Shown here: positions 2 to 63,504 of the stretch, in pieces
How positions within the stretch are numbered: the stretch's first letter is position 1
How the letters are laid out: each line of letters begins with the position of its first letter
Assembly: GCF_000620845.1 (NCBI RefSeq)
Contig: NZ_KK211189.1
Coordinates: forward strand, 945,662-1,009,661
From: Exiguobacterium marinum DSM 16307
GTDB lineage: Bacteria > Bacillota > Bacilli > Exiguobacteriales > Exiguobacteriaceae
Length of the DNA: 64,000 nucleotides
Direction: 5' to 3'
The notes under the pieces: generated by a model
What the model saw: the letters and a program-made list of their open reading frames with translations, nothing else
Told to the model about the DNA's origin: nothing
Database searches by the model: none
Position numbers and translations under genes: made by a program

Positions 2-1372
2 AAAATAGGGATTCGAGAGTGGGTGCGCAGTGTCAAAGACTGCGACGCTTTCGTCCTCAGTGCGGACATGCTTTGCTATGGCGGGCTCTTGCCGTCACGT
101 CTTCATCATATGACAGAGACGGACCGTGACGCTTTCATCGAGTGGATGCGGACGCTCCAAAGTGAGACGGATGCACCGCTTTATGTCGCGACGATGATCA
201 TGCGCACACCGAAGTATAGCTCGAATGATGAAGAACCTGACTATTATGGTCAATTCGGAGCCGAAATCTATCGACGTTCCTGGTTACAGGACAGAGAGGG
301 ACGTGACGGTTTGACCGAGATGGAACAGCAGGAACTCGTGACATTGAACGAATTGGTTCCAACAGAACATGTGGAGGATTATGAGGCGAGACGTGCCTTC
401 AACCGATCTATCAACGAAGCGATGATTCAACTCGTTGAGGAAGGTGTCATTGAGCGGTTGTTCATCCCTCAAGACGATAGTGCCGAATATGGCTACACAT
501 CGATTGACCAGACAAACGTATTAAGGCAAATACAAGAACGACGTGTGTTGACGAAGGTTCATATGTATCCTGGAGCGGATGAAGTAGGTGCAACCATGGT
601 CGCCCGAGCCTTTTTGGACCATCAAGGAACACGACCACGGGTGCATCCGATGTGGAGTAGTGTCCTCGGTCCGACGTTAATCCCGATGTATGAGGACCGA
701 CCGTTCATCGAAAGCATGTATGCCCATCTGGACGCGATTGGACTACACCTCGTCGAGACGATAGAAGACGCGGATCTCATGCTCGCCTACAATGTCCCCG
801 GACGTGTGATGCAGGAATCGTGGGATCAAGACGAGCGTGATGTGACGTACACGAGTTTTCGTCACATGCGTCAATTCGTCACCAAGATCGAATCTGCGCT
901 TACGCAAGGGAAACGAGTCATCGTCGCCGACAGTGCCTATGCCAACGGTGGGGATCAAGAGTTGATCATGTGGCTCGATGAGTTGAATATTCTCGAACAG
1001 TTGGACTCTTACAAAGGTTGGAATACGAACGGGAATACGCTCGGGACGACGCTCGCGCAAGGGGTGTTTGCCCAAGTCGGGAAGAGAGAGCGGATTCGTG
1101 AGAACGTCCTGTATCACGTCCTTGACGATTTCGTCTATCAAGCAAAAGTTCGGATGAAGATGACGAATACCGTGTTACCGCAGTATGGGGCGAGCTACTT
1201 CGATTTAAACGAACAGGCAACAGTGATTTCGCAAGAGCGTGACCGTGTGATGACGGAAGTGGCGCGACATGTAATCCGTCATTCTTTCCAAGAAGCATGG
1301 ACAGTCAACACATCGGCACCTTGGAACCGCATGTTTGAATGCCGATTAGAGTTTGGAGGAACAACCCAATGA
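2..1372 (+). CDS. DUF4127 family protein, 5' end cut by the window edge
   Basis: The reading frame is open to the first bases of the window, so the true start lies outside. A GTG at 23 is an internal valine more likely than a start, since coding sequence continues upstream of it. The visible ~456 residues resemble the DUF4127 family (about 500 residues), cytosolic proteins of unproven function often found beside sugar-processing genes. There is no signal peptide or membrane segment in the visible part. It overlaps the next gene, nanE, by four bases (ATGA), so the two are translated together. Family assignment is from overall sequence feel (for example the LLPSRLHH stretch near the visible start) and is moderately sure; biochemical function is unknown. 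Confidence 0.7.
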   Translation, partial: KIGIREWVRSVKDCDAFVLSADMLCYGGLLPSRLHHMTETDRDAFIEWMRTLQSETDAPLYVATMIMRTPKYSSNDEEPDYYGQFGAEIYRRSWLQDREGRDGLTEMEQQELVTLNELVPTEHVEDYEARRAFNRSINEAMIQLVEEGVIERLFIPQDDSAEYGYTSIDQTNVLRQIQERRVLTKVHMYPGADEVGATMVARAFLDHQGTRPRVHPMWSSVLGPTLIPMYEDRPFIESMYAHLDAIGLHLVETIEDADLMLAYNVPGRVMQESWDQDERDVTYTSFRHMRQFVTKIESALTQGKRVIVADSAYANGGDQELIMWLDELNILEQLDSYKGWNTNGNTLGTTLAQGVFAQVGKRERIRENVLYHVLDDFVYQAKVRMKMTNTVLPQYGASYFDLNEQATVISQERDRVMTEVARHVIRHSFQEAWTVNTSAPWNRMFECRLEFGGTTQ

Positions 1373-2061
1373 TTGAACAATTAAGAAGTCAGTTGATCGT
1401 GTCCTGTCAGGCGCTCCCGGATGAACCGCTCCACGGTTCGGCTATCATGGCCCGCATGGCTGTCGCCGCAAAAGAGGGTGGGGCGAGTGGGATTCGTGCG
1501 AACGGCATCGAAGACATTCAAGCGATTCAATCTGTCGTCGATCTACCCATCATCGGCATCATCAAACGGGAATACGATGGTTCGGATGTTTACATCACAC
1601 CGACGCTGGAAGAAGTCGACGCGCTCGTATCGGCAGGTGTCGATTTGATTGCGCTCGATGCGACACATCGAGCGCGTCCGGACGGTTCGACGATTGCCAC
1701 GTTGTTCCCGCTATTAAAAGAGAAGTATCCGAATCAACGCTTCATGGCGGATTGTGCCACACTCGAAGATGCGGTCCGCGCTGAACGGCTAGGGTTCGAT
1801 GTCGTCGCACCGACGCTCTATGGTTATACAGCGGAGACGGTTGGTAAGAAAGTGTATGAAGGTGACTTTCAATTTTTAAGGGAAATGGTGCAGATTGTCT
1901 CGATTCCTGTCATTGCGGAAGGGAATGTGATTACACCGGAGCATGCACGTAGAGTTCTTGAAATCGGGGCGTATGCGGTCGTCGTCGGTGGCGCCATCAC
2001 ACGACCACAGCAGATTGCAAAGCGTTTTGTGGAAGGGATTCACAGCCTGTCACCGAGGTAA
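1369..2061 (+). CDS. nanE: Putative N-acetylmannosamine-6-phosphate 2-epimerase
   Basis: NanE converts ManNAc-6-phosphate to GlcNAc-6-phosphate in sialic acid and amino-sugar catabolism in the cytosol. The 230-residue product is a complete TIM barrel of the family's usual length. Visible motifs are GIRANG near residue 40, IIKREY (catalytic-region lysine), LIALDATHR, FMADCAT, and the phosphate-binding end AEGNV followed by VVVGGAITRP. The start at 1369 is preferred to an upstream in-frame ATG because GGAGG lies at 1356-1360 and the ATGA overlap with the preceding gene is typical of coupling. With DUF4127 upstream and galM downstream it forms the end of a sugar-catabolic operon. Confidence 0.9.
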   Translation: MIEQLRSQLIVSCQALPDEPLHGSAIMARMAVAAKEGGASGIRANGIEDIQAIQSVVDLPIIGIIKREYDGSDVYITPTLEEVDALVSAGVDLIALDATHRARPDGSTIATLFPLLKEKYPNQRFMADCATLEDAVRAERLGFDVVAPTLYGYTAETVGKKVYEGDFQFLREMVQIVSIPVIAEGNVITPEHARRVLEIGAYAVVVGGAITRPQQIAKRFVEGIHSLSPR

Positions 2062-2126
2062 TGGAAGTGTAAGTCGTTCGATATGAGGGAATCGATAGGG
2101 AACGACTTTATAGGATGGGTGATTGG

Positions 2127-3095
2127 ATGAAACAAGCAACGATTCAAAATAGTAACGGCATGACACTATCCGCCATCGACTATGGCTGTGCGATGACGGA
2201 GCTGACGGCCCCGGACCGAGAAGGTAACCTAGAATCGGTCATTTTGAAATACGGGGACGTCTCTCAATACTTAGAAAACCCGATTTATCTTGGATCGGTC
2301 GTCGGGCGAATCGCCGGACGCATCCGAAACGCAGAGATTGATAGTGTCGCCTTGTCCCCAAGCGAGGCGCCTCATCATATCCATGGAGGAGACAAAGGCA
2401 TCACGGCCCGTTACTGGGAGATGGATGCTGAAGAGCGTTGTATCCAGTTTACCTACGTGAGCCCGAATGGGGAGGAAGGATATCCCGGGAATGTCTTCTT
2501 CAAAGTGATTTATGAACTGACGGACGATAATGAGCTGATTGTCACAATGACGGCGGAGACGGACGAACTGACATGGGTCAACCTGAATCATCACAACTAC
2601 TTCAATCTCGGCGGACGATCGACCATCCATGACCATATGCTGACGCTACCAGCGGATTCGGTCGGGGTGCTCGATGCAGAATCGTTGCCGACAGGAGAGT
2701 TGCGAGACGTGAGCGGGACGCCGTTTGACTTCCGAGATAAGAAAGCGGTCCGAGAAGCGCTCGAGTCTGGAGACGAGGCGATTGAGCGTGCTGATGGACT
2801 CGATCATCCTTTCATCTTGAAGGATGAACCGATCCGATTGCATGACCCGGTGAGCGGACGGACAATGACAATCGAGACGAATCAACCCGTCATGGTCGTC
2901 TATACGGGCAACTTTCTCAGTGAAGCGACGCCGGTGACGCTTGATGGTCGACAAAAACATAGCGCGATTTGTCTCGAGGCACAGGCGTTCCCGGACGCTC
3001 CGAACCATCCACACATCGCGACCTCGATCGAACTGAAACCGGGTGAATTGTATCATTCGCGAACGGTGTATCGGTTTTCAGCGAGTTCACATTAA
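2127..3095 (+). CDS. galM: Aldose 1-epimerase (mutarotase), GalM family
   Basis: The enzyme interconverts alpha and beta anomers of aldoses such as galactose or glucose. The ~322-residue protein shows the family signatures: HIHGGDKGI (first histidine), NLNHHNYFNLGG (catalytic histidine region) and CLEAQAFPDAPNH (catalytic glutamate). Start: an ATG at 2115 is also in frame, but the GGGTGAT stretch at 2117-2123 fits a ribosome site for the ATG at 2127, and nothing suitable precedes 2115. A 53-75 base gap separates it from nanE, so it probably belongs to the same transcript, which ends at the hairpin just after the stop codon. Substrate specificity cannot be read from the sequence. Confidence 0.88.
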   Translation: MKQATIQNSNGMTLSAIDYGCAMTELTAPDREGNLESVILKYGDVSQYLENPIYLGSVVGRIAGRIRNAEIDSVALSPSEAPHHIHGGDKGITARYWEMDAEERCIQFTYVSPNGEEGYPGNVFFKVIYELTDDNELIVTMTAETDELTWVNLNHHNYFNLGGRSTIHDHMLTLPADSVGVLDAESLPTGELRDVSGTPFDFRDKKAVREALESGDEAIERADGLDHPFILKDEPIRLHDPVSGRTMTIETNQPVMVVYTGNFLSEATPVTLDGRQKHSAICLEAQAFPDAPNHPHIATSIELKPGELYHSRTVYRFSASSH

Positions 3096-3171: not shown

Positions 3172-5208
3172 TTATTTCTTTTTGTTGCGACGTAGATAGA
3201 AAAGGATTGCGACAATGAGGGCAATCAATGCGATGAATCCGACGAAATACCAAGTCGGGTTCATCGAAGTAGACTCGTTAGACGTGACATCTCCTTCTGC
3301 TTGCTCACTTTGGATACTCGCACTATTCGTAAAAACTGCGCCATTCTGATTTTTTACCGCTACACTAAACGTCTCACTCGGAAAAGCAAGTGTTTGAATG
3401 AGGGTTGAATCGATCGTATCGTTCGTTGACACAACAATCATTGCCTTATCCTCGTTCCAAGGAGAAGGTTGAATCCATGCATATTCAGAAGACGTCTCTG
3501 GAACGAATCCATACTGCGATAAATCCACTTGATTGTCTTTTGTGACGAGCCAGCTCTCTTTCTGCTCGTTGAAGAGGGGACTTTGCTCCGGATCTCCGAT
3601 ATAGATGATCGAGCGGTTAGAGACCGTCTCCTCGGTCACGTCTTTGGCCCGAATAAACTCGACTTGTTGCGTTAAAGGTGTGACCGGTAAACCACTCATC
3701 ACGCCAACCATGTTTTGCAAAGTTTGTGCATTCGATTCGTCCGGGATCACGAACACAACACCAGGATCAGTCGAAAACAGACTGGCCATATTCGAGAAAA
3801 CCTTGTTATTTGCTTCTCCACTTCCTTTTGGCAATGTCAGCTGACTGTCACTCGAGATGAAAATCCAGCGATCTAAATCACTCTCGTTACATGGCGCTTC
3901 AGAACGAAGACCGTTCGCTTCAAACGATACATCTAAAAACGTATCTTTTTGAAGTGTCGATGCATCGATTTGAATCGTATATTGCTGCCATTCTTGATCA
4001 TCCTCTAAAGGCGAGAGCGGGATGGAGTGTGGGGTGCCGTTCACCCATGCAATCAACTCCGGAGACACGTCATTGTTCTGCTCAGACGTTACGTACGCCG
4101 ATGTCTTGAAACGGACCTCCATCTCCACGGTGGATTGCCGATCGATGACTGGCAACGGATAAAAGTAGTTTTGACTGACGGCTTGGGTCCCGCTCAACAT
4201 AAAGTCAGAGGCTCCGAGTGTACGTAAATCAATCGTGTCACCACTTTTTTGAACGGAAGGTGCACTTGATAGGGCGAGTTGACTCCCGTTCAGCTGTTGT
4301 CGCTGCGTCGTGATGAGAAGATGGTCCACCGTCCCTTCGAAGGAAGCCGCATCTTCTGCGAGGACGAACATCGCATCGACGGCCGTATCGTCGCTGACGA
4401 TTCGAGCTTGCTCAAACAAGACATCCTCACCTTCAGGGAGGGTCTCTAGTTCCTCGATTAACGTTTGGACGGGACCGGTGAACGAATCCGTCTGACCGAC
4501 GAACACGTACCGTCCATCCAATGTTTTCAATTGTCCTTCATATTGAAGCGATACGTTATTCGGGTTGGCTGCGTCCCCTTGTAGCTGTCGGAACAGAAGA
4601 AGTCCCGCTTCTAAAGACATCGTGTCCGGTGAGTCCGGGAGTACGATTGTCAACTTCTGGTTGGTCGTTTGAATAAAGGGGTTCGGATAATCATTTAAAG
4701 TGAGTTCGACTTTGCTTCCGATTGAAAGAAAGCTTGATGGAAGGACCGTCAGCCAACTTCCCGATGTGTTTCCGGTATCACACATGCGCCCTTCAATCAC
4801 GCCCGTGAAGCGCACGGTGACTTCATGTGTCCCTTTCGTCAAGTGCTCGTCTTGAAGTGGTACACGTACGTTACCTTGCGAGGACTCCTTGGATAATGCG
4901 ACTGACTTAAGCGGTTCACCATCGATATCGATGGTGAGTGCCGACGGGGGAATCAACAGTTCAGAGTGCGCCCAGTCGACGGATACGTATTTTGAGGAAG
5001 CCGCTTTCTCATCTCCGAGCATGGTATATGTGTACGTTCGAGAAGACGTTTCACCAGGCAATACATCATCTCCGGTCGTCAATAAGCGTTCTCCCACATC
5101 GCTTGCGGAATCGATGGGTAGTGAGGAGCGAAGCTCTGTTGCAGCTTGTACTGAAAAAGTTGAGAAAATCAAGAATACGGTCAATAAGTAGAGTGTAATT
5201 TTTTTCAT
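3172..5208 (-). CDS. ydaN: BcsB-like exopolysaccharide synthase accessory protein (YdaN-like)
   Basis: 678 residues with a signal peptide (residues 1-22, ending AQAA-like), a long extracytoplasmic region, and a single C-terminal membrane helix (about 651-672) followed by RRNKKK. This is the layout of BcsB, the membrane-anchored carbohydrate-binding partner of the BcsA cellulose synthase, and of B. subtilis YdaN. It probably receives or guides the polysaccharide made by the GT2 synthase encoded immediately upstream (13 bases apart). It is the last gene of the five-gene operon whose order matches ydaJKLMN. The polymer is unknown; in B. subtilis the yda product is also poorly defined. The identification rests on domain layout and gene order. 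Confidence 0.82.
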   Translation of the reverse strand: MKKITLYLLTVFLIFSTFSVQAATELRSSLPIDSASDVGERLLTTGDDVLPGETSSRTYTYTMLGDEKAASSKYVSVDWAHSELLIPPSALTIDIDGEPLKSVALSKESSQGNVRVPLQDEHLTKGTHEVTVRFTGVIEGRMCDTGNTSGSWLTVLPSSFLSIGSKVELTLNDYPNPFIQTTNQKLTIVLPDSPDTMSLEAGLLLFRQLQGDAANPNNVSLQYEGQLKTLDGRYVFVGQTDSFTGPVQTLIEELETLPEGEDVLFEQARIVSDDTAVDAMFVLAEDAASFEGTVDHLLITTQRQQLNGSQLALSSAPSVQKSGDTIDLRTLGASDFMLSGTQAVSQNYFYPLPVIDRQSTVEMEVRFKTSAYVTSEQNNDVSPELIAWVNGTPHSIPLSPLEDDQEWQQYTIQIDASTLQKDTFLDVSFEANGLRSEAPCNESDLDRWIFISSDSQLTLPKGSGEANNKVFSNMASLFSTDPGVVFVIPDESNAQTLQNMVGVMSGLPVTPLTQQVEFIRAKDVTEETVSNRSIIYIGDPEQSPLFNEQKESWLVTKDNQVDLSQYGFVPETSSEYAWIQPSPWNEDKAMIVVSTNDTIDSTLIQTLAFPSETFSVAVKNQNGAVFTNSASIQSEQAEGDVTSNESTSMNPTWYFVGFIALIALIVAILFYLRRNKKK

Positions 5209-5221
5209 AATATCCTCCCCT

Positions 5222-6469
5222 TCATTCGAATCGGTCTGTTTTGTACCATCTCACTTCTTGATTAAACAAGACGCGTTTGATCTCGAGATAAAGCGAGTAG
5301 ATGACGAGTAAAATCCATAACTGGCTGTACGTGAAGTACATCAGAATGACAGTGAAGAAGTTTGGAATGTTAAATTCAGAACGCTCGATACTCAGTGTCA
5401 CAAATACTTCCGTCACAAAGAGAAGGAATGCAAGAACCCATAAAACCAAAGTGATGTTTCCTACCTCGAGACCGATGTCGAAAAACAAATTGATGATAAA
5501 TAAACCATTCGATAAGATGACCCCAAAGAAAAACAAGAAGTAGGTGAAGAAAAAGTAAATGATGTCGAAGACGATTTTCTTTCGTTTCAACGAGAACAAT
5601 TGACGCATAAATTTGAGGACGACGTATTGATTCCCACGTGCCCAACGCGTTCGTTGTTTCCACCATACTTTTAGCGTCTGTGGCTCTTGTTCCCATGTGA
5701 TTGCGGCCGGGAAAAAGCGGATATGCCACCCGAGTTCGTACACACGAACCGTCAATTCAGTGTCCTCCGCGAGTGCCGCTTCGTCCCATCCCCCAAGTTC
5801 TTCGATAATAGTACGGCGTATGGCGAAGTTTGTCCCAGGAATAGTGGAGATGTTGAACCATTTCCACCTGCCTGCCTGTGCCATCCATTGGAAGCAAATC
5901 GTTTCAATGTTAATAAAACGGGTCAATAAAGTCTCATATGCATTCGTCACTCGGAATTTTCCGACGACGGCCCCCGCATCCGGGTCGTTGACAAGTCCCA
6001 TCACGAGGTGATACACACCATCCTTTTCGGGTGTGTTATCCGCATCATATATGACGAGAACATCACCGGTCGATTGGGTCAATCCATAGTTTAAAGCAGA
6101 GGACTTTCCTTTTCCTGCGTAATCCGGTGTTGTTTGGACGACATGGATAAATGAGAATTTTTCTGCGAACGTTTGGGCGATTTCACCAGTGCGGTCAGAT
6201 GAGTTGTCATTGATCAAAATAACCTCAAGTTTATCGTGTGGGTAGTTGATTCGAGACATTGCCCGAAGCGTAGCGGCGACGACAACCGCTTCATTATGGG
6301 CGGGAATTAGGACCGAGACTTTTGGCAAGTTCTTCATGTTCTTCGACCATTCAGGGATTGGATTACGAAATGTCATGTAATGCCAAAATCCACCCTGCAT
6401 TAAAAACATATGGTATAGAAGCATCGTCCAAATCATGACGAGCGAAAATAGGAATAAGAGATTTGCCAT
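5222..6469 (-). CDS. ydaM: Membrane GT2 polysaccharide synthase (YdaM-like)
   Basis: 415 residues: one N-terminal membrane helix (about 3-23), a cytosolic GT-A domain, then three to four C-terminal helices. Processive family 2 glycosyltransferase motifs are all visible: VSVLIPAHNE at 51-60, DAD at 142-144 (metal and nucleotide binding), AED at 234-236 (catalytic base) and QRTRW at 272-276 (acceptor/product binding). Unlike BcsA it has no C-terminal PilZ domain, so c-di-GMP control must come from another subunit, plausibly the degenerate GGDEF protein two genes upstream. It starts two bases after the stop of the DUF2334 gene. The donor sugar and polymer cannot be deduced. Confidence 0.87.
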   Translation of the reverse strand: MANLLFLFSLVMIWTMLLYHMFLMQGGFWHYMTFRNPIPEWSKNMKNLPKVSVLIPAHNEAVVVAATLRAMSRINYPHDKLEVILINDNSSDRTGEIAQTFAEKFSFIHVVQTTPDYAGKGKSSALNYGLTQSTGDVLVIYDADNTPEKDGVYHLVMGLVNDPDAGAVVGKFRVTNAYETLLTRFINIETICFQWMAQAGRWKWFNISTIPGTNFAIRRTIIEELGGWDEAALAEDTELTVRVYELGWHIRFFPAAITWEQEPQTLKVWWKQRTRWARGNQYVVLKFMRQLFSLKRKKIVFDIIYFFFTYFLFFFGVILSNGLFIINLFFDIGLEVGNITLVLWVLAFLLFVTEVFVTLSIERSEFNIPNFFTVILMYFTYSQLWILLVIYSLYLEIKRVLFNQEVRWYKTDRFE

Positions 6470-6471
6470 GA

Positions 6472-8163
6472 TTATCCACGCTCCTTAAATAATCGTTTTT
6501 TGCGCTGTCCCCGCAGGTAGAGTGTATATAACAAAAATGTCAGGACAGCGACGAACGTGATGAGGGCAAGGACTAAGAGCGCTCGTTCAAGAAATGAGGT
6601 CGGGGCGTACAGGCTCAACTGACTCATTACGCGAGAACGGTCGTCTTGCAGTGTAAGATCGCCGTTTGTAGCTGTGATGGAGACATTTTCTGTACGAACC
6701 CATTCATTTTGCTCACGTAAGTCAAGCCAGCGAAAGTCGGGTGTGGACTCCATCATGTTGACGAGGTCCGATAAATGTTCTGTTCCGAGATAAGGGTGAT
6801 AAAAACCGCCAATCATCGAATCACGTACAATCATCAGTTCGTCACGCGCGCGACGCATTTCGTCGACCGGTCTTGGAAGGTCGGTTCGAACGTATCCAAT
6901 TGTTTCTGGGTATAAGGTCATTCCATGTAGAAGCGACGGTTTAGCAATATAAGGAGTCGAGCCCATAACTTCCCAATTTGTGTTACTAAATTGTACTTGT
7001 CCAAATATATTAGAAAAATAATTCGATGTTAAGGCATATCCTGAATGTGACATCGTGTAGTGTGGTGCTTCAAATCCTAGAGGCTTAAGGTCGAGTGACA
7101 CAAGCTTATGAATCGAGTTCGTTAATTTTGACTGCATATAAGCCGTTTCTCCCTCTAATAACGTCGTTACGTATTCAGTATAATCACGATTGTTACTGAA
7201 CGCTTCACGTTTTTTTAGAAGGGGAGGCGTTTCATTCGAAGGAACGAGTACCGGCTGATTGTTCTCGACATCCCAAAACTCAAATCCTTCTCCTGTTTCT
7301 GAAGAACGATATTGATGAGTATAGCCATGTGAGATGACGGAAGCACCACGTTTTTCAAGACTTTGAATAACATCAAGCAGTTCTGGACGGTCGGTATAGT
7401 GAACAAGTTGCTCACTCCCTGGTTCGGCATACACTGTAATTACCGCTAACAGAATTGGTACGTCTCGGTCTAACAGATAGTTCCCTACCTCTTCAAGGAG
7501 TTTTGGATCTGTGCTCGGATTAATATCTTCTAGTCGAAGATACCCAAGATGCTCATTTGATGATTCGACTTTAAAAAAGTCAAATAGGCTATCCGCTACG
7601 AGTAAAGAAGAACGGTTCAATAAATTGTGAATTCCTGAATAAAAATGGTCATCTGTTTGAACGATGACCGCTTGTTTTTTATCATTGTGCATCGAACTTG
7701 CGTGCACAATTGAAGCTGGGTCATCTACAGTCAGGATTGAGTCAGCTGATTCGAAAGTTAAAAAATGGTCGGTACGCGCTTGATGGAATTTGGAGACTCC
7801 TTGTTTCGTTGTTGTTTCTAGTTTGTTAAAGATATCAAGTTGATTCACGTTATAGCCGATTCCATACAATGGAGAGTCTAACTGGTTAATTCGCTCACGA
7901 GTTGATTCAGGAATTGTCGCAGGATTTGCACCGAAGTAAAATAAGTGAGTTGTCCCACTAAACGATTCTTTTAATACTTCAGTGTCGCGAAGGATGTCGA
8001 TTTTCTCCGAAAAGTGGGAAATCAGAGCATCCAATTTGTAGACTTCTGGTGGAATATCATTTGTTTCTGAACTAAAAACGATTGTAACGCTCGGTTCTTT
8101 TGCAAAAGAAATTTGTGGGATACCAACTAAGACAAGAATGAGAATAATCATTTTATAACGCAT
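6472..8163 (-). CDS. ydaL: DUF2334 protein with signal peptide and C-terminal helix (YdaL-like)
   Basis: 563 residues: signal peptide (1-21, ending ISFAK), an extracellular region, and a C-terminal membrane helix followed by a basic tail. The middle carries the DUF2334 domain, related to polysaccharide deacetylases, with LRLEDINP and the SHGYTHQYRSSETGE stretch, which resemble the metal-site segments of that fold. A role in modifying the nascent exopolysaccharide outside the membrane is inferred; whether it really deacetylates is unproven. It overlaps the start region of the operon's GGDEF gene stop by 11 bases and is followed two bases later by the synthase gene, so expression is tightly coupled. 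Confidence 0.8.
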   Translation of the reverse strand: MRYKMIILILVLVGIPQISFAKEPSVTIVFSSETNDIPPEVYKLDALISHFSEKIDILRDTEVLKESFSGTTHLFYFGANPATIPESTRERINQLDSPLYGIGYNVNQLDIFNKLETTTKQGVSKFHQARTDHFLTFESADSILTVDDPASIVHASSMHNDKKQAVIVQTDDHFYSGIHNLLNRSSLLVADSLFDFFKVESSNEHLGYLRLEDINPSTDPKLLEEVGNYLLDRDVPILLAVITVYAEPGSEQLVHYTDRPELLDVIQSLEKRGASVISHGYTHQYRSSETGEGFEFWDVENNQPVLVPSNETPPLLKKREAFSNNRDYTEYVTTLLEGETAYMQSKLTNSIHKLVSLDLKPLGFEAPHYTMSHSGYALTSNYFSNIFGQVQFSNTNWEVMGSTPYIAKPSLLHGMTLYPETIGYVRTDLPRPVDEMRRARDELMIVRDSMIGGFYHPYLGTEHLSDLVNMMESTPDFRWLDLREQNEWVRTENVSITATNGDLTLQDDRSRVMSQLSLYAPTSFLERALLVLALITFVAVLTFLLYTLYLRGQRKKRLFKERG

Positions 8164-9010
8164 AACTCTTCAACTCATTTCTCAATAATCCGAGGACGTC
8201 ATCAGGTGATTCGATCTTTGCTTCTTTTGTGACGGTGTAGTGGGCGATATGGTTCGTGAAGGATACCTTTTTGCCGTTTGACAGCTCGTAGTCCCCAATC
8301 AATTGTCGGAAGCGATTCAAAATGATAATCATATCCGATTCAGAAGCATAAGGTAGAATGAGCGCGAACTCTTCCGTGGACAATCGAAATTTTTTATCGG
8401 TCGTTCGTGTCGATTGGTGAAGACGTTCACTAAAAAATGTTAAAAAACGTGTTGCTTCCTCATTTCCATAGAGTCGTATAAATTCTGTGAAGTAGTCGAT
8501 TTGATAGAGCAGGACGGTGAATGATTCTCCGTGACGGTTTGTACGATTGATTTCCAACTGAAGTTCAAGTTCAAAACGTTCTTTATTGTCAAGTCCCGTC
8601 TCCTCATCGATTGATACGAGTCGTCTGACCTTCTCCTGTAATGAAAGGTTTAATCGGTTTAATTGATTGATTCGTGCATAAATACTTCCGCTTAAAATGA
8701 CAAAAACAATCAACCAGACACCAAACTGTAAGAGGGTGGCTTCTGAGAACAAAAACATTTGGTCGGTAGGTCGGAAAAATAGGTTCCAAAAGTACAGGCT
8801 TCCGAATAAAAATAAAATTACCAGGGCCGTGAATAATCCTGCACGCATCCCTGCAAACAAGCTAATAAACAAAGCTAAAGCAATTAGTAAAGACCCTTCA
8901 ATCGTTACATTTCCTAGGTCCGGCATGTACAGTAGAAATAGAACGGCAGCGATCAACAAAAGTCCAATTTGTAAACTGACTAAACTTGTTTTACGGAATG
9001 AGGTATCCAT
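8153..9010 (-). CDS. ydaK: Membrane degenerate GGDEF protein, likely c-di-GMP receptor (YdaK-like)
   Basis: 285 residues with about four N-terminal membrane helices (12-110), a short coiled segment, and a GGDEF-fold domain (about 130-280). The signature GGDEF is replaced by STEEF at 211-215, so it should not make c-di-GMP. The inhibitory-site motif RxxD is kept as RTTD at 202-205, exactly five residues before the signature, which is the spacing used for c-di-GMP binding. B. subtilis YdaK, also catalytically dead, is a known c-di-GMP receptor for its operon. The inferred role is to sense c-di-GMP and switch on the synthase. It overlaps the lipoprotein gene upstream by 20 bases. Confidence 0.82.
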   Translation of the reverse strand: MDTSFRKTSLVSLQIGLLLIAAVLFLLYMPDLGNVTIEGSLLIALALFISLFAGMRAGLFTALVILFLFGSLYFWNLFFRPTDQMFLFSEATLLQFGVWLIVFVILSGSIYARINQLNRLNLSLQEKVRRLVSIDEETGLDNKERFELELQLEINRTNRHGESFTVLLYQIDYFTEFIRLYGNEEATRFLTFFSERLHQSTRTTDKKFRLSTEEFALILPYASESDMIIILNRFRQLIGDYELSNGKKVSFTNHIAHYTVTKEAKIESPDDVLGLLRNELKSYAL

Positions 9011-10064
9011 CGATTAGTCCCCCTTCTGCTAATAAAGGCAGTAAATTGTCAAAAGCGTGAGTCTCTTTCGTATCTACATCAAGATACCCTCCATAGTAAT
9101 CAGATGATGAGTCGGAAACCATCGATGAGGTGAGTCGATTCATCACTCGCTCTGCAAAGTCCCGTTCATCACGCTCGAGTAAATAAAAGATTGCCAACGC
9201 ATAGACTGCTTGAGACTCATAGTTGACAGTTGGTTTTTTTGAGTTGAGGTCGTACCGTCCGTAGACAATCCCGTCATTGAATGTCTCTTTAAAGAAAGAA
9301 TAAAACGATGCGGTCGATAATCCGAACTGTTCATAGCGCAAGGCGACATATAATTGATCAATCATATTGATTTCCTCATCGAACTGATACGTCTGAGTTG
9401 AGATGACGTAAGATTTTGCGAAGAACGGATCGCTCAGCGGCGCATTACTCAATACTTGTTTGCTGTTGTCGTACAAGTCGTTCACGGCCATGTGGCGTAG
9501 GGCGTCCTCATCTAAGTAGCTTAAAGTCAAAACGTCTCCACGTTCCTTTGTTGCCAAATCGACGAAGTCAACGGGGATCCCATCTTTGACCCCAATTGAT
9601 GTGAGTGAAGTGCCAATCTGTTCAGCCAATTTAATGTAAGAAGGTTCATCAAACGCATCTCCCGCTTCATACAGGGCGTGAACGATTCGAGCATCATCAA
9701 TCCAGGCATTCGCAGGGCTTCGTGTAAGCTCATCGTTCGTCCTTTCAAGTCGCCAACTAACCAAATTAGATGCATGCAAGAAATGCTCGGTGAGTACATC
9801 GACTTGTGAGGCAAATTCGTCTGCGCGATCCCGTTCGACTAAAAATAGCAAATAGAGTCCGAGAGACTCAGATAAAAATTCATTTTCGCGATTGGTCACA
9901 TTCGTTTGGATGAGACCTTTTTCTGTTAACAGATGACTTCGAATGAATGATTCTGTTGGAAATTCACTCTCGTAGTCTTGAGGAAGCTCAGTTTCTTCTT
10001 TGTTATCTGAACATCCGTACAATAAAAATAAACATGAGAGTGAGATAGAAATAAGGTGTCGCAT
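8991..10064 (-). CDS. ydaJ: Lipoprotein, probable glycoside hydrolase-like (YdaJ-like)
   Basis: 357 residues with a lipoprotein signal (lipobox LLYGC, lipidated Cys18). The rest is helix-rich with repeated paired helices, consistent with an alpha/alpha-toroid glycosidase such as family GH8, the type proposed for YdaJ. It would act at the outer face of the membrane on the polymer made by the downstream genes. It is the first gene of the operon, with a clear purine-rich ribosome site (AAGGGGGA, read on the minus strand) just before the ATG. I cannot point to catalytic carboxylates with confidence, so hydrolase activity is inferred from position and fold-like features. Confidence 0.7.
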   Translation of the reverse strand: MRHLISISLSCLFLLYGCSDNKEETELPQDYESEFPTESFIRSHLLTEKGLIQTNVTNRENEFLSESLGLYLLFLVERDRADEFASQVDVLTEHFLHASNLVSWRLERTNDELTRSPANAWIDDARIVHALYEAGDAFDEPSYIKLAEQIGTSLTSIGVKDGIPVDFVDLATKERGDVLTLSYLDEDALRHMAVNDLYDNSKQVLSNAPLSDPFFAKSYVISTQTYQFDEEINMIDQLYVALRYEQFGLSTASFYSFFKETFNDGIVYGRYDLNSKKPTVNYESQAVYALAIFYLLERDERDFAERVMNRLTSSMVSDSSSDYYGGYLDVDTKETHAFDNLLPLLAEGGLIDGYLIP

Positions 10065-22885: not shown

Positions 22886-22917
22886 AAAAAGGGACACTCA
22901 ATGCGAGTGTCCCTTCG
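22885..22917. terminator. Terminator between convergent genes at 22.9 kb
   Basis: The arms GGGACACTC and GAGTGTCCC enclose AATGC. The six A residues before the left arm give a T-run on the minus strand, so it acts mainly for the minus-strand gene, whose stop lies inside the hairpin. Confidence 0.85.
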
Positions 22918-25594
22918 TGTTGACCCAAGTTTCAAATGAAGCCGCATCAAGAGCGGGTGAGAAGTAGTAGCCCTGCCCGAGCTCGACTCCTTCATGAATC
23001 ATTCGTGACAGGTCGTCATCGGTCTCGATGCCTTCAGCGAGGGCGGTCAGCTGTTGCTCGTTTGCAAAACGCGACACGGCACGTAAGAAGGATGTACTTT
23101 CTTTCGCCTTCCCACTCACATACATCCGGTCGATTTTGACTTCTTGAATCGGCAAATGCCAAATCGCTTCGAATGAGGCATATCCGGTCCCGAAGTCGTC
23201 AATCGAGAGGCAATATCCGAGGTCGGCGATATCTTCTAACCGTTCGAGTTCACTCTCATACGACATAATATCTGACGACTCCGTCAATTCAATCTTCAAT
23301 CGGTCCGGTAGCCAAGGATGTAGCTCGATGGAGTCCCGAAGTTTCGCTACAATCGACGGGTCGACCGAATGAGCCGACAAGTTGAACGACAGTGAGATGT
23401 CTTCGAAAGGCGTGTCTTGCCACGCGACGAGCTGTGCGATCGTCTGGTCGAGAATGTTGTGCGATAGCCATAAGATTTGATCGGATCGCTCTGCGACACG
23501 AATGAATTCGTTCGGTGGAATGACTCCGACGTCAGGATGTGTCCAGCGGGCGAGTACTTCCGCTCCGACGACACGGCCTGTTTTCAGCTCGACTTGTGGC
23601 TGATAGGCGACCGTCAATTCACCTTTTCGGATCGCCTCTGGAAGCGCCTGCTCAATCAGTGCGGCGAGTTGCATCTGGGCTAGGATGTCTGAGTCATACC
23701 AAACGGATGGGATGCGGGTTTCTTTGGCGTGTTGTAACGCCTTCATCGCCTCAAACAGACAATCGTTATACGCAGGTTTCGTCTCGGTTGCACCGATTTG
23801 AATGTGTACATTTTGTCGTTTATGATTGACTGTCAATTCCGTCGGGAACAGTTCCAATAATTCATGTTCATCCTCAAAAGAGAAGCCTCTGACATACAGC
23901 ATGAACGTGTCGTCCCGATACCGCCCGAATAGATGTTGTGCATATTTGGACAGGCGAGCCTCGACGGTGCGCGCGAACTCGTTCATGAGAAGATCGGCGT
24001 ATGCCGGATCGTACCAATCGACGAGGTGATGGTAGTCATGCAGTCTAATCAAGACGAATGCACCGTCAATCTCTTGATTCTCCCATCTGCGGATGAAGCC
24101 ATACTCGTTGTAGAGGTTGGTCGCCAAATCGAAGCGCACGAGACGGTCGACTTTTCGTTCCCGCTCGACACGATCAGTCTCATCTTCAACAATCAAATAA
24201 TATGTCAATTGTTCTTCCCGTTTTAGTGGTGTCAATTTCACGTTCAAATAACGAGTATGTTCGCCTTTCAAATGGATGATGAATTGGGCGCTCGTTCCTT
24301 GGTCGGTCACGCCTTCAAGTGCTTGTTCGAACAGACGGCGACCCGTCTCGGTGAACAGTTGGTTGATCTCATATAAATTTCGGTCGCCAAAAAACTGACG
24401 GAACATCTCATTTCGTTCAATCAGATTATAAGAATCATCCATCAGCGCGATGGCGAGCCCGGTCTCTGAAAAGAGGGACGACCAACGTTCGTGATAGCGC
24501 ACGAGATCCTGTGAGCGATTCTCAAGCTCATGGAAGGTCGAATGAACGCTTGCGGCAATCTCGCGTAACTCGTCCTCGATGCCACGGAAGTCATGCGTCT
24601 TCGGGAACATTTCTTCAACCGGCGTGAGACTTGGATCGATAGCAAGCGCTCGTGCCTTGAGGTGCGCCAAATCGTGATTGTAACGCTTGCGCGTATAGTA
24701 AAGCAGGGAAATCAGTCCGAGTGATAAGAGGAATGTCATGACGAATGAGGTAGTGGCGAGAATTTGGTAATGTTTACTTTCTTCTCGTAGCGCGACCTCT
24801 GAAGTAGAGCGAATCGAGCGAAGAGCCCCATACGCATCTTCGTAGACGTTCGTTGAATTGACATAACGAGCTTCGAGAGATGCCTCACGGTTTGCCATAT
24901 TGGCGAACGATTGACCACTTTCTGCCACGTCGATGACGGCTTTCGTTTGTAACGTTGTGTTCGATGCGATGATTGTTTGGATGATTGCCGCTTCGCCTAC
25001 AATCAAATCAACGGTACTGGCCAGTTGGTTCTCGTCAATTGAATCACCAAGTAAAGAAGCGCCGTTTCGCATGAGCATCGATTGCATCCGCATAATGGCG
25101 TCAATCAGTTCATAAGCTGCATTCGGTTGATTCGTTTGTTCGAGCGCTTGATAGAACCAACGGCGATTGATTGAACTGATGACATCGTTCGGGACCGCCT
25201 CGAATCGCTCTTCTTCGAGAATACGGTTCAAATCGTTCGAGAACGTCTGAAGCGTCTCTCGTTCCCGTTCGTTTATACCAGCTTCGAAGTCGTTCAATAA
25301 ACGCTCATTGTATTGGAGTGCCCGTTCTTTGTACGGTGTGGATAAGAACGATGACGTCTGATTCGACTGTTCCTCGTAACGGGTCGCCGCCTCGAAGAGC
25401 GTCACATACGCTTCGACACCAGCCAGGTCTGACGCCTGACTCAAATTCGCGATTGTCTGGTCGATGGCTTCTTGTTTTTCATGCCAATAAAAACTCGTTC
25501 CAAGCCCAAACAACAGGACACCGATGAGACAAGCGACTGCAAGCGCCATCGTGTAGATACGGTATGGAATTTTCGCGAAACGGGATTGGTCCAT
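22898..25594 (-). CDS. Membrane PAS-GGDEF(degenerate)-EAL c-di-GMP phosphodiesterase
   Basis: 898 residues from the ATG preceded by AAAGGAGGTG. Two membrane helices (about 12-32 and 280-300) bracket a large helical extracellular sensor. A PAS-like domain follows (about 370-480), then a GGDEF fold whose signature is RDDTF, so it cannot make c-di-GMP. The EAL domain (about 640-890) has EVL for EAL and all expected catalytic residues: NLS, ELTES, IDDFGTG, KIDR, EGIE and QGYYFS. It should therefore hydrolyse c-di-GMP in response to an external signal. It could oppose the c-di-GMP receptor of the yda-like operon. The ligand is unknown. Confidence 0.87.
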   Translation of the reverse strand: MDQSRFAKIPYRIYTMALAVACLIGVLLFGLGTSFYWHEKQEAIDQTIANLSQASDLAGVEAYVTLFEAATRYEEQSNQTSSFLSTPYKERALQYNERLLNDFEAGINERERETLQTFSNDLNRILEEERFEAVPNDVISSINRRWFYQALEQTNQPNAAYELIDAIMRMQSMLMRNGASLLGDSIDENQLASTVDLIVGEAAIIQTIIASNTTLQTKAVIDVAESGQSFANMANREASLEARYVNSTNVYEDAYGALRSIRSTSEVALREESKHYQILATTSFVMTFLLSLGLISLLYYTRKRYNHDLAHLKARALAIDPSLTPVEEMFPKTHDFRGIEDELREIAASVHSTFHELENRSQDLVRYHERWSSLFSETGLAIALMDDSYNLIERNEMFRQFFGDRNLYEINQLFTETGRRLFEQALEGVTDQGTSAQFIIHLKGEHTRYLNVKLTPLKREEQLTYYLIVEDETDRVERERKVDRLVRFDLATNLYNEYGFIRRWENQEIDGAFVLIRLHDYHHLVDWYDPAYADLLMNEFARTVEARLSKYAQHLFGRYRDDTFMLYVRGFSFEDEHELLELFPTELTVNHKRQNVHIQIGATETKPAYNDCLFEAMKALQHAKETRIPSVWYDSDILAQMQLAALIEQALPEAIRKGELTVAYQPQVELKTGRVVGAEVLARWTHPDVGVIPPNEFIRVAERSDQILWLSHNILDQTIAQLVAWQDTPFEDISLSFNLSAHSVDPSIVAKLRDSIELHPWLPDRLKIELTESSDIMSYESELERLEDIADLGYCLSIDDFGTGYASFEAIWHLPIQEVKIDRMYVSGKAKESTSFLRAVSRFANEQQLTALAEGIETDDDLSRMIHEGVELGQGYYFSPALDAASFETWVNTKGHSH

Positions 25595-25664
25595 CCGGCA
25601 CCTCCTTTTTTTCTTCATCATACTCCGATTTCGGGTCACGGGATGAAATTCCTGCAAAACGAAA

Positions 25665-27759: not shown

Positions 27760-29607
27760 ATGATCGAGAAGAACTTTTCAAACCGAACATATCGTAAACA
27801 TCAAGAGAAACTGTTCGAACTCGTGAGAATGCCGATTGTGACCGAGAAAACCGTACAGGAGGCGATTCGATATATGTGTGAGATCGTCGCTGATATGCTG
27901 GCGGTCGATACAGTGTCAATTTGGCATTTTGACACATCATATCAATCCATTTCGTGCCAAGTCGCCTATTCTCACGAATCAGGTACACATTATCCGAAGT
28001 TGTCGGTTCATCGTGAACTCGCAGCGGACTATTTTGGGGCGCTTCAGACAGAACGGGTCCTCATGTTCGAGGACGTTCGAAGTCACCCGTGGGTGAAGGA
28101 ACTATACACAGAGTATTTTGTGGAAGGTCAGCGTATCCACTCGATGCTCGATGCTCCGATTTACGCGAACAATCGCGCTAAAGGTGTGATTTGTTGCGAA
28201 ACATTTTTACCGCGGAAGTGGAACTATCTTGAAGAATTAATTGTGAGCACGCTTGCGGACTTTATCGCAATCCTTTACTTTCGACTCGACCGTCAGTTAG
28301 TTGATGAACATCTTCATCAACTGGCCTATACGGATGAATTAACGGGATTGATGAATAAGTACGCGTTTGTCGATGAAATCGATTCACTTCGTCTTCATAC
28401 GGAAGGTTTTCTCGGTGCTGTTCTTTATATTCGAGCCGATGATTTTCGATCGATTGAAGATGCTATCGGTTCTGAAGCGTCTGATTTGATTGTCAAAGAA
28501 ATGGCGAGTCGATTGCGCAAGGTGGTCGATGAGTCTCGAATGGCTCGAACGTCTCAATCTGGATTTGTCATTTGGATTCCTTACGGGGAACGGAGGAAAG
28601 TGCATACGCTTGCGGAACACTTATGTGAGCAAGTGACACGTCTCCCGTATCGAATTAATGAATTAGATGTTGTGTTGACGACGAGCGCGTTCATCTCGAT
28701 CGAAATTGAAGGTCGCTCCACATTAGACATGATTCATACAACTCGGGTTGTTGCGGGTCAATCGAATGGGAAGCGGGGAGTCATTGCGTTTTTTGAAGAG
28801 GAGATGGCACAGAAAGCATCAGATCGCCTAAGGCTAGAGATGAACCTACGATTGGGAGTCCTGTCAGAACAGTTTGAATTATATTATCAACCAAAAGTTA
28901 TTGCTGATTCTGGAAAATTGAAAGGGTTCGAAGGATTGATGCGCTGGAATCATCCGGAGCGTGGTCTCGTCCCGCCACTCGACTTCATTCCGCTCGCCGA
29001 ATCGACGGGGATCATCATTGACCTAGAAGAATGGGCGTTCGTAACGGCCTGTCGCCAGCTCAAACAGTGGCATAATCGTGGAGACCGCTACGAGCTTGCG
29101 CTCAACTTATCGGCGCGTCATTTCTTATCTGAAGGGGTCGTCGAAAAATTTGCCCAAATCGCACGTGAAGAAGGAATCTGTACGAGTTATATGACTCTTG
29201 AGATTACAGAGAGCGTTGGGATGGAAAACCAGCAACACGTCATCGACCGTTTCATCGCCTTCCGGGAAGAAGGATTTTCCATTTCCATCGATGACTTCGG
29301 GACCGGGTTCTCAGCATTCGTCTACTTGAAGCACTATCCGATTCATGAGATCAAAATCGATCGACAGTTCATTCAAGTGACAGAGAACGACCCGACCGGG
29401 AACGTCATCGTTGAATCCATCGTCGACTTAGCACGCGGATTGAACTTGAAGACGGTTTGTGAAGGCGTCGAAACGCTTGAACAGTGGAACGCATTACGTG
29501 GACTCGGCTGTGACGAGATGCAAGGGTACTATTTCTCTAGACCGTTGCCGCTTCAAGAACTTGAAACATGGATTGCTAGCTATACGACACAGACAAGGGA
29601 CGCCTGA
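27760..29607 (+). CDS. Cytosolic GAF-GGDEF(degenerate)-EAL phosphodiesterase
   Basis: 615 residues without membrane helices. A GAF domain (about 25-175) is followed by a GGDEF fold (190-345) whose signature is SQSGF and therefore inactive, and by an EAL domain (360-605). The EAL domain keeps EGL, NLS, EITES, IDDFGTG, KIDR, EGVE and QGYYFS, so c-di-GMP hydrolysis is expected. The ribosome site (GGTGAGG) is rather distant. This is the second EAL protein within 5 kb; the two differ in sensing, one external and one cytosolic. The GAF ligand is unknown. Confidence 0.87.
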   Translation: MIEKNFSNRTYRKHQEKLFELVRMPIVTEKTVQEAIRYMCEIVADMLAVDTVSIWHFDTSYQSISCQVAYSHESGTHYPKLSVHRELAADYFGALQTERVLMFEDVRSHPWVKELYTEYFVEGQRIHSMLDAPIYANNRAKGVICCETFLPRKWNYLEELIVSTLADFIAILYFRLDRQLVDEHLHQLAYTDELTGLMNKYAFVDEIDSLRLHTEGFLGAVLYIRADDFRSIEDAIGSEASDLIVKEMASRLRKVVDESRMARTSQSGFVIWIPYGERRKVHTLAEHLCEQVTRLPYRINELDVVLTTSAFISIEIEGRSTLDMIHTTRVVAGQSNGKRGVIAFFEEEMAQKASDRLRLEMNLRLGVLSEQFELYYQPKVIADSGKLKGFEGLMRWNHPERGLVPPLDFIPLAESTGIIIDLEEWAFVTACRQLKQWHNRGDRYELALNLSARHFLSEGVVEKFAQIAREEGICTSYMTLEITESVGMENQQHVIDRFIAFREEGFSISIDDFGTGFSAFVYLKHYPIHEIKIDRQFIQVTENDPTGNVIVESIVDLARGLNLKTVCEGVETLEQWNALRGLGCDEMQGYYFSRPLPLQELETWIASYTTQTRDA

Positions 29608-62686: not shown

Positions 62687-63265
62687 ATGTCAGTCTTACG
62701 ACCGGACCAATTTTCAGGTGAAGCGTTGACCGAGCATATCGAACTCGAGGACACGCTGTCACCTTACGTTGATATCAAATCTGATGAACTGAATTTTGAG
62801 TATTTTGAGGCTGTCGTTCGTCATGCCCAGCAATTGTTTGATGCGTTGTTCGAAGAGGGCGACCCCATCCGGATCGTTTGGCATGTATATGGACAACCCG
62901 TCAAACCGACCCGTCTGTTCTGTTATATCCGAGACAAATCGGTGCGCTTCAAGACGACCGCCACATCGTGCATGTTCGATGACGAACCGTTATGGATGTT
63001 CACCGTGCCGATAGCGGACAAGTCCGCAATCCGTGTGCGACCACTCCTCGAGGCGATTTGTTATCGAGATTTTTATAGAAAATCGAAACCTCGTTTGAAC
63101 GGTCAATATACGACGTATCCGTTCGTTCAGTTCATCCACGAACGAGAGGGGCACGTCTTGTTCGTATACGATGACCGCGGTGCGTATATCCGTGGTACCT
63201 CACCAGCCCACCTCCAATCGCTCAAACAAAAAATCTCCCCGCCCCGCATGCCCGATCGGACATGA
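62687..63265 (+). CDS. DUF3885-like hypothetical protein, antisense between T-box and trpE
   Basis: 192 residues from the ATG with AAAGGGG upstream. The stretches IRIVWHVYGQPVKPTRLFCY and FVYDDRGAYIRG resemble DUF3885 proteins, whose function is unknown. Its start lies only 44 bases from the trpE start (divergent), and its last ~37 bases overlap the antisense T-box terminator and antiterminator, so its C-terminal residues (ISPPRMPDRT) are encoded by riboswitch sequence. This suggests that it was inserted between the leader and trpE, or that its end was formed by that junction. Confidence 0.68.
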   Translation: MSVLRPDQFSGEALTEHIELEDTLSPYVDIKSDELNFEYFEAVVRHAQQLFDALFEEGDPIRIVWHVYGQPVKPTRLFCYIRDKSVRFKTTATSCMFDDEPLWMFTVPIADKSAIRVRPLLEAICYRDFYRKSKPRLNGQYTTYPFVQFIHEREGHVLFVYDDRGAYIRGTSPAHLQSLKQKISPPRMPDRT

Positions 63266-63504
63266 AGGACGAGGAGATTCCCCGTGTTGCCACCTTCGTT
63301 GAAAGACGCCTTGTCTTCCCACTCATCGCGAACCATCATTCGCTGTCCCCGATAACGGGAGGACCCGTCAGAGCCTACATGTCGGTCTGAACGCTCAAAA
63401 GCCCATTCGCGCAAGGTACGACACCGGTTCGCATCGACCACCGGCTTTCTGAAGACGTCCCTTCGCGCTACTCTTCTTTCTCATCGCGAGTTCGTATGAA
63501 TGTT
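63228..63504 (-). ncRNA. T-box riboswitch, tryptophan-type
   Basis: Read on the minus strand it has the T-box parts in order. Stem I starts with AAGAGTAGCGCGAAGG, has an apical AGAAAGCCGG .. AACCGG region, and returns through CCTTGCGC followed by GAA-TGG, placing TGG (Trp) at the specifier. The T-box sequence AAGGTGGCAACACGG is at about 63297-63283. A terminator stem (AATCTCC .. GGGGAGATTTTTTG) ends at about 63228. The acceptor-end base is C (TGGC), which pairs with discriminator G73 as in tRNA-Trp but not with U73 of tRNA-Gly. It is oriented toward trpE, 586 bases away. Confidence 0.88.

Follow-up and report, generated by a model that had tools for sequence, protein, structure and literature searches.

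A predicted c-di-GMP-controlled exopolysaccharide operon of the ydaJKLMN type in Exiguobacterium marinum, with a degenerate GGDEF protein as its putative receptor

We analyzed a stretch of 64,000 nucleotides from Exiguobacterium marinum DSM 16307 (contig NZ_KK211189.1; hereafter the window), in which five minus-strand genes at positions 3172-10064 correspond to the ydaJKLMN operon of Bacillus subtilis. We consider it very probable that these genes encode an exopolysaccharide (EPS) machine controlled by cyclic di-GMP (c-di-GMP), in which YdaK, a protein with a catalytically dead GGDEF domain, would serve as the receptor for the synthase YdaM through its inhibitory site (I-site).

The operon and the I-site of YdaK

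The five open reading frames were all intact, and their packing was operon-like: ydaJ and ydaK overlap by 20 nt, ydaK and ydaL overlap by 11 nt, and gaps of 2 nt and 13 nt separate ydaL from ydaM and ydaM from ydaN, respectively. Homologs of all five genes lie on one strand in the same order as in B. subtilis. This agreement in order and families had been claimed in the original prediction, and it was borne out by the positions of the reading frames and by the domain matches. The features are as follows (TM, transmembrane; A-site, active site).

8991..10064, minus strand: ydaJ-like; predicted lipoprotein (lipobox LYGC), glycoside hydrolase of family GH126, a relative of PssZ from Listeria; predicted catalytic E66, plus D123, R126, and Y183
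8153..9010, minus strand: ydaK-like; degenerate GGDEF domain and four N-terminal TM helices; I-site R202/D205, R233, and secondary R159; A-site STEEF; Q170
6472..8163, minus strand: ydaL-like; extracytoplasmic DUF2334 domain (polysaccharide-deacetylase-like, PF10096, 4e-41), signal peptide or anchor, C-terminal TM helix
5222..6469, minus strand: ydaM-like; processive GT2 polysaccharide synthase; D88, D142xD144, E235D236, and Q272RxR275W276; end at residue 415
3172..5208, minus strand: ydaN-like; BcsB-like extracytoplasmic subunit with BcsB matches; signal peptide, C-terminal TM helix
8396..8407, minus strand: RTTD codons (R202-D205) within ydaK, primary I-site motif
8366..8380, minus strand: STEEF codons (211-215) within ydaK, degenerate active-site motif

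YdaK consists of 285 amino acids, and its GGDEF domain was matched at 1e-21. As the original prediction had stated, STEEF (residues 211-215) replaces GGDEF and RTTD (202-205) stands exactly five residues before it; the reading frame and 52/52 members of the family agreed with this claim. The catalytic metal Asp of cyclases is Q170 in YdaK and GG[DE]EF is absent, so that the protein lacks the residues by which a diguanylate cyclase is recognized.

Subsequently, 52 diverse YdaK proteins encoded in operons (17-86% identity to the present protein) and four orphan members of the family, described below, were aligned. The only columns that were invariant across both sets were M1, D135, R159, R202, and D205. 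Among the operonic proteins, R202, D205, and R159 were each found in 52/52 and position 233 was always R or K; the metal Asp was missing in 52/52, and none had GG[DE]EF. When the 285 columns were ranked by Jensen-Shannon conservation, D205 was 2nd, R202 4th, R159 5th, and R233 14th, and the five GGDEF columns ranked 133, 159, 58, 239, and 62.

In a phmmer alignment, R159 and R202 of YdaK stood opposite R198 and R242 of WspR (numbering counted by hand). We take R198 of WspR (R313 of PleD) to be the secondary I-site arginine, which is supplied by a neighboring GGDEF domain. The invariance of R159, together with this equivalence, suggests that c-di-GMP may cross-link two YdaK domains. Such cross-linking would fit the stoichiometry of Listeria PssE, an I-site receptor that binds two c-di-GMP per protein with a dissociation constant of 0.79 μM (PMC4125290). 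An AlphaFold2 model of YdaK, with a mean predicted local distance difference test score (pLDDT) of 88, had four TM helices leading into a GGDEF fold, and its top Foldseek match was PleD with c-di-GMP bound (2.5e-13). Furthermore, the ratio of nonsynonymous to synonymous substitution rates (dN/dS) of ydaK was approximately 0.03-0.04 with saturated dS, indicating strong purifying selection.

The host genome (2.8 Mb) encodes 23 GGDEF domains. Thirteen have GG[DE]EF, of which 6/13 keep RxxD; among the ten degenerate domains, RxxD is kept in 2/10, namely in YdaK and one paralog, both of the YdaK family. Retention of the I-site in a dead domain is therefore specific to the YdaK family in this genome. 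Given these counts and the 52/52 in the family, the register of RxxD is not due to chance. Most of the other degenerate domains of this genome belong to EAL proteins. Two EAL proteins with degenerate GGDEF and no RxxD are encoded in the window at 22898-25657 (minus strand) and 27760-29607 (plus strand), approximately 13-20 kb from the operon.

The synthase, its partners and the proposed mechanism

YdaM had a GT2 match at 1e-31, and every residue of the catalytic motifs listed above was invariant in 73/73 relatives. No PilZ match was obtained with YdaM, which stops at residue 415; the claim that this GT2 synthase is devoid of the PilZ domain of BcsA was thus confirmed. The best curated family was PgaC/IcaA (177 bits, 6e-52), followed by CelA (97.5 bits), both under the cut-off, and the closest solved relative by sequence was BcsA (1e-19). 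YdaN alone gave a weak match to BcsB (NCBIfam NF008323, 1e-9); the profile of its family reached solved BcsB structures at 3e-11, and the Pfam BcsB model PF03170 was matched by 5/9 of its relatives, at best with 2e-52. The earlier notion of a variant of cellulose synthase therefore suits YdaN as a BcsB-like protein, but it suits YdaM less well, since YdaM is nearest to PgaC/IcaA among the curated models.

For YdaL, PF01522 remained below the threshold, and no solved relative of the DUF2334 protein was found by profile search. The sequence of YdaJ matched the solved structures of Listeria PssZ (6r2m, 1e-37) and CPF_2247 (3ren, 4e-23). Of the residues highlighted in publications on GH126, E66, D123, and Y183 were kept in 77/77 and R126 in 76/77 relatives. 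A GH8 label for YdaJ was rejected, because the GH8 score was 18.2 bits against a curated cut-off of 24 and strong GH126 matches were obtained instead. YdaJ is accordingly regarded as GH126/PssZ-like.

In the proposed mechanism, YdaM would polymerize a nucleotide sugar and pass the polymer across the membrane, YdaN and YdaL would work on the outer face of the membrane, and YdaJ would trim or release the polymer. YdaK, the four-TM subunit whose GGDEF domain is expected to be unable to make c-di-GMP, would bind a c-di-GMP dimer via R202, D205, and R233, and a second GGDEF domain probably holds on to this dimer with its R159. Binding would thereby drive dimerization or rearrangement of YdaK, by which YdaM would be switched on; we infer that the two proteins are in direct contact. 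The polymer is presumed to resemble that of Listeria Pss. A composition of the ManNAc (N-acetylmannosamine) and galactose type is a reasonable guess rather than a result, because the EPS that PssZ breaks down consists of ManNAc and galactose at 2:1 (PMC7479077) and because spores of B. subtilis acquire an alpha-Gal/GalNAc lectin signal when they carry the yda operon (PMC13274460).

Binding of c-di-GMP, and the dependence of EPS on the I-site and on a cyclase, are demonstrations made in relatives. In B. subtilis, EPS requires the cyclase DgcK and residues R202 and D205 of YdaK (PMC5422440), for which the R202A and D205A mutants were tested (PMC5422440, PMC7064775); the YdaK of B. velezensis is a probable c-di-GMP receptor (PMC9800504). 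Taken together with these experiments, the sequence and family evidence supports the claim that the synthase is controlled via a separate degenerate GGDEF membrane subunit. The receptor interpretation appears to be right but was already known for this type of operon, and the family-wide statistics of I-site conservation provide new quantitative support for it. In the part of the literature that was covered, we found no work on the operon in Exiguobacterium.

Known systems and alternative explanations

The present operon and B. subtilis ydaJKLMN share five genes of the same order and families, a four-TM degenerate GGDEF receptor, and a PilZ-less synthase, and even the residue numbers of the I-site (R202 and D205) are identical. 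They differ in the A-site of YdaK (STEEF here, SDERI in B. subtilis) and in the host, which has 23 GGDEF domains here. Two points weigh against our interpretation: YdaK is only about 30% identical to the YdaK of the B. subtilis group, and the operon is absent from 13/19 genomes of the genus and is therefore dispensable.

Listeria pssA-E likewise unites a PilZ-less GT2, a BcsB ortholog, and an I-site receptor with a degenerate GGDEF domain in a single operon, and YdaJ is homologous to PssZ; however, the receptor gene is last there and its A-site is DKDDA (PMC4125290), and the five pssA-E genes, as reported, do not include the GH126 gene for PssZ (PMC7479077), unlike the case here. With BcsA-BcsB, the operon has in common a processive GT2, a BcsB-like partner, and control by c-di-GMP, the last being predicted here. 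BcsA senses c-di-GMP via its own PilZ domain, whereas a separate subunit would do so here, and YdaM, unlike the cellulose synthase, scores higher to PgaC/IcaA than to CelA. A c-di-GMP receptor or sensing subunit apart from the synthase is also found in Pel (PelD) and PgaCD, although those systems have other synthase families and accessory genes and sensing in Pga is joint by PgaC and PgaD. In PelD, a degenerate GGDEF I-site is used as well. The comparison with PelD has been drawn previously (PMC4125290).

It seems very improbable that YdaK is still a (weak) diguanylate cyclase in which RxxD mediates ordinary product feedback inhibition. STEEF does retain both acidic residues of GGEEF, and some cyclases with changed first glycines remain active; however, the metal Asp, replaced by Q170 here, is absent in 52/52 relatives, and, whereas the I-site does not change, the GGDEF columns and other substrate-site positions have drifted (ranks 58-239). 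Moreover, the YdaK of B. subtilis makes no c-di-GMP (PMC5422440). Scarcely more credible is a decaying or silent operon that has lost its regulation by c-di-GMP in this strain: the five frames are intact, the catalytic and I-site residues are retained, and the low dN/dS of ydaK (approximately 0.03-0.04) points the other way, although the patchy occurrence (6/19 genomes) speaks in its favor.

YdaK might also bind c-di-GMP but serve chiefly to dock a cyclase, as a scaffold or sink, instead of switching YdaM allosterically. This role was judged rather unlikely, given that the complete I-site, with its cross-domain arginine, is retained without exception and that the I-site residues are required for EPS in B. 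subtilis. In its favor, the contact of B. subtilis YdaK with DgcK depends on the I-site (PMC7064775), and several Bacillales operons are adjoined by a cyclase gene of their own. A candidate upstream cyclase is also encoded in this genome (contig C2, at approximately 685-686 kb), a 5TM-5TMR_LYT + GGEEF protein whose domain arrangement matches the one reported for DgcK of B. subtilis; its pairing with YdaK would be a guess by analogy. The scaffold and switch roles are compatible, and both may hold.

Distribution, surroundings and an orphan paralog

The scan for the operon covered one genome per species. Eighty named loci were obtained from Bacillus, Lysinibacillus, Brevibacillus, Paenibacillus, Sporosarcina, Kurthia, and others, nearly all in the J-K-L-M-N order. 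In 398 Bacilli genomes, 58/78 YdaK-family matches were located at most 6 kb from a YdaM-like synthase; these counts rest on E-value cut-offs (1e-30 for YdaK and 1e-70 for YdaM), by which some divergent ydaK genes were missed. The remaining 20/78 comprised 19 Exiguobacterium orphans and one match of different architecture outside the genus, a 459-residue open frame of which the GGDEF part alone was matched.

Several variants were observed. At loci L093, L115, L120, L128, L130, L133, and L134 (Sporosarcina and some Gracilibacillus/Ornithinibacillus), an [SG]GDEF gene without RxxD adjoins J-N, and the gene after it in L093 encodes a hybrid histidine kinase of 1031 aa; the separate [SG]GDEF proteins are possibly a dedicated cyclase input. 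Many genomes of one genus in the Paenibacillus group have a J-K-M cluster without L and N (L186:7051-10717), whose YdaK retains RYED and has lost GGDEF, a receptor paired with another GT2 type. In L179 and L180 the order is L-M-N-K, with ydaK last as in Listeria pssA-E. The YdaK of Paenibacillus agricola (L138:5378-7396) has 672 aa; its GGDEF domain is preceded by approximately 390 additional N-terminal residues that match no known domain. In a sister genus (L072 and L073), a PgaC-like GT2 gene lies beside a GH126 ydaJ-like gene, and no ydaK gene is present.

The search for Rfam RNAs at the operon, including the c-di-GMP riboswitch, gave no match; the sole Rfam match in the window was a T-box leader (RF00230, 116 bits) at 63262-63493 on the minus strand. 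In a search for a SigB-type promoter upstream of ydaJ, a -10-like GGGTAT was found approximately 53 nt upstream in 2/6 genomes, with no clear -35. NanE-type epimerase and aldose 1-epimerase genes (window 23-3095, plus strand) are convergent with the operon. The proximity of the aldose epimerase gene may be incidental, because this gene is present in 19/19 genomes of the genus.

The operon itself is ordinary for its kind; the unexpected part is an orphan paralog of YdaK. Each of the 19 Exiguobacterium genomes has at least one YdaK-family gene: the full operon was found in 6, the orphan in 18, and both in 5. In this genome, the orphan (G000:C2:1827052-1827858; L066:8053-8862) encodes membrane helices and a dead GGDEF domain, and no EPS genes are nearby. 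The orphan keeps the I-site as RRTD together with R159 and R233 and has lost GGDEF (e.g., AQDTF), and its dN/dS of 0.06-0.22 indicates purifying selection. The main orphan locus is syntenic, lying between a major facilitator superfamily (MFS) gene and ATP-binding cassette (ABC) permease genes wherever these fall on the examined stretch; in one genome, an additional divergent copy with a stop within the frame was found elsewhere. In a quick tree with support from the Shimodaira-Hasegawa-like approximate likelihood ratio test (SH-aLRT; no bootstrap), the orphans formed a clade (SH-aLRT 99) that was grouped with the operonic YdaK of Exiguobacterium and one Bacillaceae sequence in a fully supported set. 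The orphan was absent from the sister genus.

The five genomes with both genes, the separate clade, and the syntenic locus led us to reject the idea that the orphan is only what is left of a lost operon. In the 13 genomes of the genus without the operon, no YdaM homolog was found at E 1e-60; hence, the orphan there must act on another target or persist for another reason. We give an even chance to the explanation that Exiguobacterium duplicated YdaK early and that one copy, freed from the synthase, signals c-di-GMP to a target outside the Yda system.

The present analysis extends the mechanism of c-di-GMP-dependent EPS known from Bacillus and Listeria to Exiguobacterium. Across Bacillales, selection maintains the site for binding but lets the catalytic one drift, which makes the argument for a receptor independent of any single species. 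If the proposed duplication is true, the orphan would be a YdaK-type membrane receptor that has ceased to act on its operon's own synthase. The orphan raises the testable question of what role a dead-GGDEF membrane receptor has once its synthase is gone.

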